From NCBI GenBank assembly GCA_024641925.1, contig JAHECB010000014.1:1-33802 (forward strand): DNA of 33,802 nt. The letters run 5' to 3'. The DNA is from Betaproteobacteria bacterium. Its GTDB lineage: Bacteria > Pseudomonadota > Gammaproteobacteria > Burkholderiales > Burkholderiaceae_C. Positions 16,115 through 18,025 of this stretch are shown here, in pieces (the stretch's first letter is position 1; every line of letters starts with the position of its first letter). The position numbers were made by a program, and so were the translations under genes. The notes beneath the pieces are model-generated. The model ran no database searches, was not told where the DNA came from, and saw only the letters and a program-made list of their open reading frames with translations.

Positions 16115-16192
16115 AGAGGCTGTCAAATGCCAAGTCCGGTGGTACGCTGGCGTTGAGCACGCCATGCCGGCGTGCGCCTGCCGGAGAGACCC

Positions 16193-16645
16193 ATGGCCGA
16201 CGAAAATTTGAACTTCAACAGTGCTCGTTTGGTCAGTGTTGCGGCCAACGACACCCTGAACGTGGGTGGATCCAGTTCCACCACGGTCGGGCTCAACCAG
16301 CAGACCACCGCAGGCGGCAGCAGCACCCTGACGGTCGGGCTGAACCGCAGCGTGACAGTGGGCGCCGCAGACGCATTGAACGTGGCGGGGGCGCGCACCA
16401 TATCCATCGGCCGCGACGACCGCACCAGCGTCAGCGGCAACAGCAGCCACGCAGTGGGCAAGACGCTGACCGTGACGGCCGGTGACGCCCTGGAATTTGT
16501 CGTTGGCAAGTCCAGTCTGACGCTGAAGAAAGACGGCACCATCGTGCTGCGCGGCAAGGACATCCAGATCGTGGGCAGCGGCACCATCGACATCCGTTCA
16601 ACCCGTGATGTGGTCATCAAGGGCAGCAAGCTGCTGCGCAACTGA
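16193..16645 (+). CDS. Orphan VgrG/gp5 C-terminal-like beta-helix protein
   Basis: A 150-aa protein starting at ATG 16193 with GGAGAGA upstream. It consists of short repeats of the kind x-L-T-V-G-x-N (TLNVGGSSSTTVG, TLTVGLNRSVTVG, ADALNVAG, LTVTAGDALEFVVG) ending in SSLTLKKDGTIVLRGKDIQI and an IDIRSTRDVVIKGSK tail. This is the pattern of the triple-stranded beta-helix needle of VgrG and phage gp5. The gp27-like and OB-fold parts of a VgrG are absent, and no type VI secretion or phage genes are adjacent. It could be a stand-alone spike tip, a degraded remnant, or a module that works with a remote system. No signal peptide. Confidence 0.75.
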   Translation: MADENLNFNSARLVSVAANDTLNVGGSSSTTVGLNQQTTAGGSSTLTVGLNRSVTVGAADALNVAGARTISIGRDDRTSVSGNSSHAVGKTLTVTAGDALEFVVGKSSLTLKKDGTIVLRGKDIQIVGSGTIDIRSTRDVVIKGSKLLRN

Positions 16646-16719
16646 GGTGCTGGCTCGCCGTGTCTCGGCTACGGCCCGCCGCACGACGGCCGTGGCGCTG
16701 ACCAGGCCGACCTGAACGA

Positions 16720-16738
16720 CGCCCCGGTCCCCGGGGCG
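16720..16738 (+). terminator. Short GC hairpin after the beta-helix gene
   Basis: An 8-bp stem (CGCCCCGG / CCGGGGCG) with a 3-base loop, followed by a G run rather than T. It is a possible terminator between the beta-helix gene and the LexA-box promoter. Confidence 0.35.
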
Positions 16739-16744
16739 GGGGGC

Positions 16745-16773
16745 TTGCATCATTAACTGTATGCCCATACAGT
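16745..16773 (+). promoter_or_regulatory. Sigma-70-like promoter overlapping the LexA box
   Basis: TTGCAT (16745-16750), a 17-bp spacer and TACAGT (16768-16773) form a plausible promoter whose -10 half lies inside the LexA box. Transcription would start near 16780, just ahead of the AAGGGG ribosome binding site of the 28-codon ORF. Confidence 0.45.
16756..16773. promoter_or_regulatory. LexA (SOS) box
   Basis: ACTGTATG-CC-CATACAGT is an 18-bp palindrome with perfect 8-bp arms and contains CTGT-N8-ACAG (16757-16772). The 20-base context AACTGTAT....ATACAGTA differs from the E. coli-type consensus core only at its first base and in the central bases. Betaproteobacterial LexA uses the same CTGT-N8-ACAG motif. 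Its position over a promoter and 24 bp before a small ORF supports a functional site. Confidence 0.8.
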
Positions 16774-16797
16774 ACTGGCTTTCCAAGGGGTAAAGCC

Positions 16798-16884
16798 ATG
16801 AGCAAGTCTGATTTCCGCCACGTCTACAAGCCCGTGCCTGACCGCCTGCCACGTTGGGTTTGGCGAGTCTGGGGCTGGTTCTAG
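16798..16884 (+). CDS. 28-residue cationic Trp-rich small protein under LexA box
   Basis: ATG at 16798 with AAGGGG 9 bases upstream; stop TAG at 16882. The peptide is 28 aa, starting MSKSDFRHVYKPVPDRL and ending PRWVWRVWGWF. It carries about +4 net charge and four tryptophans in the last nine residues, so the C-terminus could insert into a membrane interface, although there is no full-length transmembrane helix. I do not recognise a family. SOS-controlled peptides of this size are known (TisB in E. coli, SidA in Caulobacter), but they have longer hydrophobic segments, so homology is not claimed. Coding status rests on the LexA box, promoter spacing and ribosome binding site. Confidence 0.55.
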   Translation: MSKSDFRHVYKPVPDRLPRWVWRVWGWF

Positions 16885-16928
16885 ACGGTGGCCCAGGTCA
16901 ATTGCTGACACAAACTTCATACCGAACC

Positions 16929-16945
16929 GCCTGGCAAAGCCGGGC
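16929..16945 (+). terminator. Hairpin after the 28-codon ORF
   Basis: GCCTGGC-AAA-GCCGGGC forms a 7-bp stem with one G-T pair, followed by ATTTC. It could end a short SOS transcript of about 170 nt. The T tract is weak. Confidence 0.3.
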
Positions 16946-16975
16946 ATTTCACGTTCCGCTTCTCTTCACACCAAA

Positions 16976-17179
16976 ATGAATGCGCCGCTCTTCAAAGAGG
17001 TGTTGCTTCGCCGCACCGACGATCGCCAACCTCTCTTGCCTCTGGCCACCGATGGCGTGGCGCGGTGGGTCTGGGAGAGCCGTTACGGGTCGATGTTGAT
17101 CGAGGTGGTTGAAGGACGCGTGTACGTCAATGGCTTACCTGTCGAGCCGCATGCACCGCCGGCCAAGGCCGGGTCCTAG
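16976..17179 (+). CDS. 67-residue conserved-looking hypothetical protein
   Basis: Begins MNAPLFKEVLLRRTDDRQPL and continues with ARWVWESRYGSMLIEVVEGRVYVNGLPVEP, which reads like a compact folded beta-type domain (two or three strands) rather than random coding. No strong ribosome binding site is seen at the ATG. It follows the LexA-box ORF by 91 bp on the same strand and might share its transcript, though a hairpin lies between. I do not recognise the family. Both this protein and the 28-residue peptide contain RWVW, which may be chance. Confidence 0.6.
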   Translation: MNAPLFKEVLLRRTDDRQPLLPLATDGVARWVWESRYGSMLIEVVEGRVYVNGLPVEPHAPPAKAGS

Positions 17180-17359
17180 GCCAGCCCTGCCAGTCCCGGC
17201 GGCGATTGCCGCTGTCTTCATGGCGTCGGCCTGAAACTCGCATGCGCCATGCTGTTGAACCCGGCCTGCGCGGACAGGCGCTCTGGCCCTCTATCGAGCC
17301 AGTGCGAAACAATGATCACCTGATGTTGCCAACATCGTTTGTCGGCGACACTGACACGC

Positions 17360-18025
17360 ATGGCCACCTTGCCCCCAACACCGTTTTTCGACACCCTGCT
17401 CGCAGGTGCTACCGGGCTGGTCGGACGAGCCCTTGTGCAAGGATGGGACGGTCCGGGCGCTCTGCATCTGGTGGTGCGGCGGCCCATGGATGCGCCCGCC
17501 CCGGACACACAGGTGCTGGTTGTCGACTTCGCAGCACTGCCACCCTTGCCACCGGCACGCGACGCCTATTGCGCTCTGGGCACGACGATCAAACAAGCGG
17601 GCTCACAAGCTGCGTTTCGGGCGGTGGACTTTGATGCCGTGCTGGCTTTTGCCCATGCCGCCCAAGCCGCCGGTGTCGAACGCTTCGGCGTCGTTTCTGC
17701 CTTGGGTGCAAACCCGCAATCAGGCACGTTCTACAGCCGCGTCAAGGGCGAGATGGAAACCGCCTTGATGACATTGGGCTTTCCGACGCTGGTCATCGCT
17801 CGGCCGTCGCTGCTGGCGGGCGACCGGGCAACGCTGGGCCAGGCGCCTCGTCTGGCTGAACGTTTGTCGCTGGCGGCGTTGCTGCCGGTGGCAGGGCTGA
17901 TACCGCCGGCGTGGCGCCCCGTCGAAGCTGCTGTCGTGGCGCGGGCGCTGCGCCGGGCCATTGCCGGCGGTGCGTCCGGTATCACAGTCCTGAATTCGGC
18001 AGATCTGCAGCGATTGGGACATTGA
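17360..18025 (+). CDS. NAD(P)-binding Rossmann protein (atypical SDR, HTATIP2/YtfG-like)
   Basis: A 221-aa protein starting at ATG 17360; an in-frame TTG at 17339 is less likely. The nucleotide-binding GATGLVG is at residues 16-22. VSALGANPQSGTFYSRVKGEME contains a YxxxK-type pair (Y and K of YSRVK), and the LVIARPSLLAGDR stretch is typical of the atypical short-chain dehydrogenase group with NmrA- or HTATIP2-like members. It probably binds NADP(H); substrate unknown. No strong ribosome binding site is seen. The stop is followed at once by a hairpin. Confidence 0.85.
   Translation: MATLPPTPFFDTLLAGATGLVGRALVQGWDGPGALHLVVRRPMDAPAPDTQVLVVDFAALPPLPPARDAYCALGTTIKQAGSQAAFRAVDFDAVLAFAHAAQAAGVERFGVVSALGANPQSGTFYSRVKGEMETALMTLGFPTLVIARPSLLAGDRATLGQAPRLAERLSLAALLPVAGLIPPAWRPVEAAVVARALRRAIAGGASGITVLNSADLQRLGH

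Follow-up and report, generated by a model that had tools for sequence, protein, structure and literature searches.

Does the LexA-box-like palindrome of contig JAHECB010000014.1, from a betaproteobacterial genome (assembly GCA_024641925.1), operate a real gene, and what might the very short protein encoded behind it do? The analysis covered positions 1–33,802 of the contig, hereafter called the window. The open reading frame (ORF) in question, ORF1, has 28 codons, and a preliminary description of the locus had proposed it as a LexA-driven, SOS-induced small protein. On sequence grounds, ORF1 belongs to a conserved family of putative LexA-operated microproteins that is new in the libraries searched and predicted to be of the SOS-induced small protein kind. 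The family is defined by its sequence, is very short, has kept its operator across many genera and has no family model in those libraries.

The LexA box upstream of ORF1

The box CTGTATGCCCATACAG, of the pattern CTGT-N8-ACAG, is located at positions 16757–16772 of the forward strand, on which the promoter, ORF1 and ORF2 features given below also lie. It is embedded in a near-palindrome, ACTGTATGCCCATACAGT (16756–16773), in which eight of nine pairs are complementary, and its right half is overlapped by the −10 element TACAGT (16768–16773), found 17 bases downstream of the −35 element TTGCAT (16745–16750). A likely ribosome-binding site, AAGGGG (16786–16791), precedes ORF1; purine runs of this type are present before the peptide in many relatives, not in all. 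ORF1 (16798–16884, stop codon included) starts with an ATG 24 bases past the −10 element and encodes MSKSDFRHVYKPVPDRLPRWVWRVWGWF, a microprotein with a net charge of +4 (six K/R, two D) and four tryptophans (W20, W22, W25 and W27), all within the final nine positions. Promoter, palindrome, AAGGGG, reading frame, charge and tryptophan count were thereby confirmed base for base as they had been given in the preliminary description, which did not mention a second small gene of the locus, ORF2.

The single box of the window is not significant by itself, because 0.38 exact matches are expected against the one observed and 32 of 100 shuffled sequences contain at least one. The genome as a whole contains 28 copies of the pattern, versus 10 of the same pattern read backward. 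We then compared 105 ORF1 loci, merged into 81 distinct ones according to the DNA of their final 22 codons; L147, L162 and L167 were excluded before this count, the first and the last of them looking like box-less chance matches to the search pattern. Within the 110 bases upstream of the peptide, 78 of the 81 loci (window included) have a box that is either exact (67 loci) or has a single mismatch. By comparison, 11,044 random windows taken from the same loci contained no exact box and 2.0% had one with at most one mismatch, the corresponding figures upstream of 3,013 other ATG frames being none and 1.8%. These comparative controls (78/81 loci versus about 2%) rule out a chance box. Similarly, at the best 30 places obtained by searching 100 relatives (window included), the box was present with at most one mismatch in all 30 and exactly in 26.

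Three loci lack a box within 110 bases. In L177, ORF2 precedes the peptide and is itself preceded by a one-mismatch box; in L094, the nearest exact box lies 164 bases ahead of the peptide start; L102 again has ORF2 in front, with only a poor one-mismatch site farther up. When the 78 other promoters were aligned on the box, the −35 core TTGC was conserved at 85, 77, 82 and 76%, and the T following ACAG at 94% (ACAG itself being required for the alignment). Two or more box-like sites occur in 32 of the 81 loci, and 23 of the spacings measure exactly 18 bp. The genome of the window encodes LexA (TIGR00498, expectation value (E) 1.8e-66, above the curated cut-off), and its lexA locus (L076 1333–1366) carries two one-mismatch sites, 135–168 bases before the lexA match, whose 18 bp spacing is the same as in many ORF1 promoters.

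A large neighbouring gene was also considered as the true target of the box. This is not supported, because ORF2 is the sole neighbour cluster that recurs in more than three of 48 ORF1 loci (12 loci); three trios of loci (for example L139/L144/L158) do share longer stretches. The proposal of a LexA-driven small protein is thus supported by a box that travels with the ORF, and ORF1 is almost certainly a real LexA-controlled gene. We infer its SOS induction from the conserved operator.

The ORF1 family

A protein search of the 100 relatives gave ORF1 matches in 64 genomes at E≤1, and the peptides encoded at the best 30 places (window included) all have similar C-termini. Most members have 27–28 residues, with the consensus R..Y.P...R.P.WLRR.W.WF. 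In an alignment of 27 members (the L002 row being without its first Met), Y10, P12, P18 and W25 are invariant, and R7, W20 and W27 are conserved in at least 90%. The ORF is conserved along with its box: a profile gave matches at E≤0.001 in 52 of the 81 genus genomes and, at E≤0.01, in 53 of 299 genomes of the taxonomic family in 31 of 141 genera, the weakest of these matches being partial and doubtful. A set of 250 genomes from the order, in which other families predominate, gave only weak and partial matches besides that of the window itself, and the best match outside the taxonomic family (E 6.5e-4) covers 16 of 28 positions. As judged from these matches, the ORF1 family was found in a single taxonomic family among the samples examined. 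A DNA pattern of the C-terminus that ignores the box retrieved 50 stretches from a collection of named genomes, with the genus taken from the record labels. Sixteen are labelled Rubrivivax, others Azohydromonas, Ideonella, Roseateles, Aquabacterium and Pseudorhodoferax, and the remainder are mostly metagenome bins labelled Burkholderiales or beta-proteobacterium. Rubrivivax gelatinosus strain IM 151 (L185) carries the peptide behind an exact box, and no ORF2 was recognised next to it.

The ratio of the proportions of non-synonymous and synonymous differences (pN/pS) was calculated for 72 loci over their last 23 codons, nine of the 81 being left out. The two closest pairs have a ratio of 0.06 and the 14 pairs that follow one of 0.29, the ratio growing with distance; overall, it is 0.57 in the true frame, and the shifted frames give 0.98 and 1.40. 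Among codon positions, the third varies most and the second least in the first 30 loci. By this substitution pattern, the ORF1 frame evolves as coding sequence. Frameshifted orthologues were also looked for: no internal stop occurs among the genus matches listed, and pN/pS favours the true frame.

A separate observation concerns L162 (1367–1402, minus strand), in a metagenome-assembled genome labelled Gammaproteobacteria, where a family-like frame and a one-mismatch LexA box are present with no in-frame ATG. The copy may have decayed, or the assembly may be in error.

ORF1, ORF2 and three relatives gave no match at E≤1 in Pfam, NCBIfam or PHROGs, and in Pfam this includes SulA (PF03846). A sequence search of the PDB with ORF1 returned four matches with E values of 2.1–4.5, and a plasmid search with the sequence of an ORF1 relative gave one match, at E 0.5, inside a tss gene. 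Among the literature matches listed, no title or abstract start describes the ORF1 peptide or ORF2. Two hypothetical-protein genes, hypA and hypB, are predicted to be under LexA control in Burkholderia and relatives, hypB being said to be exclusive to Burkholderia, according to the available part of a comparative SOS study that covers Betaproteobacteria (PMC3323433). Unlike these genes, which are compared here by their description in that part, ORF1 and ORF2 have only weak partial matches outside their own taxonomic family in the samples searched, and identity of either with hypA is unlikely.

The C-terminal tail and possible roles of ORF1

We analysed the physical character of the last 11 residues, encoded at 16849–16881 in the window. 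Their Wimley-White interfacial energy averages −5.3 kcal/mol over 81 members (−6.3 for the window), whereas 962 control C-termini from frames of at least 250 residues gave +2.6 (standard deviation 2.2), with 0.3% reaching −5.17. Cut-offs of −4 or below for the energy and 0.5 or above for the hydrophobic moment were both passed by 78% of the members versus 0.4% of the controls. The moment peaks at 100 degrees, as expected for a helix, and an AlphaFold2 model of a 36-residue relative shows a helix at residues 27–35 with nothing regular before it. On the Kyte-Doolittle scale, no stretch of transmembrane hydrophobicity was found across 80 members, the best 19-residue mean being 0.37; the usual threshold is 1.6. 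This is a surface-docking profile, in which a short amphipathic helix has a strong predicted affinity for the membrane surface.

The following scheme would account for these features. LexA would block the ORF1 promoter, to be opened upon DNA damage. The C-terminal P-x-W-[LV]-x-R-[IVL]-W-x-W-F segment would fold as a short amphipathic helix docking at the inner face of the cytoplasmic membrane, leaving the R-x-x-Y-x-P segment exposed for binding of a partner. Most likely, the peptide would in this way act as an SOS-response brake on some process of the envelope, with cell division as first choice, in a role resembling that of SidA or SosA without homology. Docking at the membrane surface is probable, and on balance we favour a LexA-controlled gene acting there. 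That its action is a division brake is a tentative proposal, possible rather than probable, and made because of the operator, the predicted membrane tail and the precedent of SidA as a model.

Several known systems are relevant to this scheme. The FtsA protein of the same genome ends in MFGRAKDWFLGNF, and tails of this type serve in membrane targeting; the resemblance to ORF1, which also has a short amphipathic C-terminal tail with aromatic residues, is an analogy without homology. SosA of Staphylococcus and YneA of Bacillus, likened to ORF1 by their description in the available parts of the sources, are SOS-induced division inhibitors, as is proposed here for ORF1; they are membrane-spanning proteins, unlike the surface helix predicted for ORF1. 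Caulobacter SidA is a 29-residue inner membrane protein, induced in the SOS response, that inhibits division via FtsW, as stated in the available part of the report (PMC4211646). ORF1 resembles SidA in size, in LexA control (here by its operator only) and in its expected action at the inner membrane. It is set apart, by comparison with that description, by its polar N-terminal half (R..Y.P), its Trp/Arg tail and the lack of a transmembrane-length stretch on the Kyte-Doolittle scale.

Several observations weigh against the membrane-surface reading or its extension to division. The gene is patchy, 29 of the 81 genus genomes (some of them incomplete) being without a match, and ORF1 is for this reason not a universal checkpoint. 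The helix model has a modest confidence (mean predicted local distance difference test score 69.5, predicted template modelling score (pTM) 0.25). The octanol scale gives a favourable 19-residue window in 46% of the 80 members, making a deeper insertion possible, and an amphipathic tail could equally serve protein-protein contacts. Finally, PF03846 is not depleted in ORF1 carriers. It was detected at E≤0.01 in 46 of the 299 family genomes, 16 of them above the cut-off and none being that of the window, and in 13 of the 53 carriers (4 above the cut-off). Fifteen of the 16 matches above the cut-off lie in open frames of 252–350 residues, which we take to be ImuA-like. Canonical SulA is thus not evident in the 299 genomes, although the PF03846 counts do not prove it absent. 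A role of the peptide in filling a SulA gap is not supported by co-occurrence, and we have slightly lowered the likelihood of the division brake, because PF03846 is no rarer among carriers.

As another possibility, ORF1 could be a membrane-depolarising toxin of the TisB/DinQ type, repressed by LexA and perhaps by an antisense RNA, that slows the damaged cell. The LexA operator, the similar size, the cationic and Trp/Arg-rich composition and the strong predicted membrane affinity are all consistent with this. In the available part of one report, TisB and DinQ are SOS-induced and DinQ is a LexA-controlled, 27-residue single-transmembrane peptide that depolarises the membrane (PMC3567139). However, unlike DinQ, a toxin controlled by antisense RNA, ORF1 is predicted to form a short surface helix and, the octanol result apart, has no transmembrane-length hydrophobic stretch. 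No antisense RNA was seen: there was no Rfam match at 16500–17400, and no consensus antisense promoter at 16600–17400 in a weak scan that also missed the LexA-box promoter. We consider such a toxin rather doubtful. The preliminary description had seen no obvious relationship to TisB or SidA, and this holds in that ORF1 has no transmembrane helix by the Kyte-Doolittle scale, the octanol scale being ambiguous.

A LexA-controlled gene acting at the membrane surface remains the favoured reading of ORF1. SidA, DinQ, SosA and YneA vary between bacterial groups and each offered a handle on division or the membrane; the ORF1 family would provide an exact target for studying how division or the membrane is handled after damage in the Rubrivivax-Ideonella-Roseateles group.

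ORF2 and its association with ORF1

The second small gene of the locus, ORF2 (16976–17179), encodes a conserved protein of 67 residues, and through it a second protein with LexA boxes is linked to the ORF1 family. Matches were found in 23 of the 100 relatives at E≤0.0012 and in 26 of the 299 family genomes at E≤0.001, a few of the latter being partial. The ORF2 consensus is MNAPLxPEVL...QxxLPLAxxGVxRxVWESRFGxMLIEVxxGxVFVNGxxVEP. Among 399 genomes of the order, the match of the window itself is the sole credible one, two partial matches being obtained at E 0.008. Foldseek gave no match at E≤0.001, and plasmid and phage records none at E≤0.1. The structure model predicts a three-strand beta meander at residues 28–51 (17057–17128); with a pTM of 0.46, it is too small for fold classification. 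In one relative (L201, genome G350), ORF2 contains an in-frame TAG about half way and is apparently a broken copy.

Association of the two genes was examined from both sides. A recognised ORF2 adjoins ORF1 in 12 of 48 ORF1 loci in one set and in 8 of 28 in another. In Azohydromonas australica (L141), ORF2 follows ORF1 at a distance of 45 bases; Aquabacterium humicola (L177) has the two genes in the opposite order. From the side of ORF2, 45 distinct loci were retained after exclusion of six weak or partial matches (L050, L051, L053, L209, L210 and L211) and of a duplicate (L186). ORF1 adjoins ORF2 in 26 of them, in the order ORF1-ORF2 in 20 and ORF2-ORF1 in six. The 19 others are without ORF1, and 17 of these have, within 150 bases, a box of their own that deviates by one mismatch at most (8 exact); the control rate of about 2% was measured on 110-base windows only. 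Boxes of the same quality lie within 150 bases of ORF2 in four of the six swapped pairs; of the other two, L215 has an exact box at −267 and L198 has no box of that quality. Since each gene occurs without the other, neither ORF1 nor ORF2 requires its partner, and the boxes present when ORF2 stands alone indicate that each gene keeps its own LexA-box link.

Two genomes carry several cassettes. In genome G165, three swapped cassettes, identified by eye, lie on three contigs (L200, L212 and L215), with the ORF2 stop and the ORF1 start overlapping as TGATG. Pseudorhodoferax sp. Leaf265 has two ORF1-ORF2 cassettes on contig NZ_LMMT01000013.1 (L160 396–431 and L184 1101–1136). Each has its own LexA box and the two 8-kb stretches do not overlap, which suggests duplication or transfer.

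The segment QPLLPL of ORF2 (17027–17044) resembles a beta-clamp-binding motif. In the available part of the source, the clamp-binding consensus is QL[S/D]LF or QxxLF, and the hexapeptide of E. coli Hda is QLSLPL (PMC12309361). The corresponding [Q/E]xxLPL of ORF2 is largely conserved and lies in the low-confidence N-terminal part of the model. Clamp binding is put forward as a hypothesis, because the Q is not invariant (E in 3 of 19 proteins); position 2 is free.

ORF1 and ORF2 could form a complex. ORF2 would bind a replication protein, for which the sliding clamp is a candidate, and ORF1 would act at the membrane to tether or regulate it; the pair would then pause replication and envelope growth together. 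The adjacency in 26 of 45 ORF2 loci, found in both orders, the TGATG overlap, the conserved [Q/E]xxLPL and the MQMPLAL sequence near the start of Hda in the genome of the window, with its QMPLAL, would fit such a complex. It is opposed by the 19 ORF2 loci without ORF1, the low proportion of ORF1 loci with a recognised ORF2 beside them and the variable motif, and we regard it as unlikely. Under the membrane-surface reading of ORF1, ORF2 would rather be a second LexA-controlled effector, often expressed from the same transcript. A two-protein SOS cassette, whose membrane-surface peptide restrains division or envelope growth while a clamp-binding ORF2 restrains or redirects replication, is a distinctly unlikely extension; if true, one LexA operator would couple the division/envelope and replication checkpoints.

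A toxin-antitoxin pair, with ORF1 as toxin and ORF2 as antitoxin, would agree with the small size and frequent adjacency of the two genes and with the cationic nature of one of them. Yet both genes have LexA boxes, both occur alone, their order is reversible and neither matches a family in Pfam, NCBIfam or PHROGs (PADLOC was not searched), making this very improbable. Weaker still is the view of ORF1 as a mere leader or attenuator of ORF2 whose peptide has no function: its shortness, its several Trp codons and its position as the first gene in 20 of 26 pairs are in line with this, but conservation with synonymous codon changes extends to residues other than Trp (Y, P, P, R), 20 of 28 ORF1 loci have no recognised ORF2, ORF1 follows ORF2 in six pairs and no terminator-like site was found at 16600–17400.

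Upstream of the locus, an ORF at 16172–16645 of the window contains Gp5-type C-terminal trimerisation repeats (PF22178, PF06715). It has a TctC-type receptor gene on one side and the LexA box on the other.
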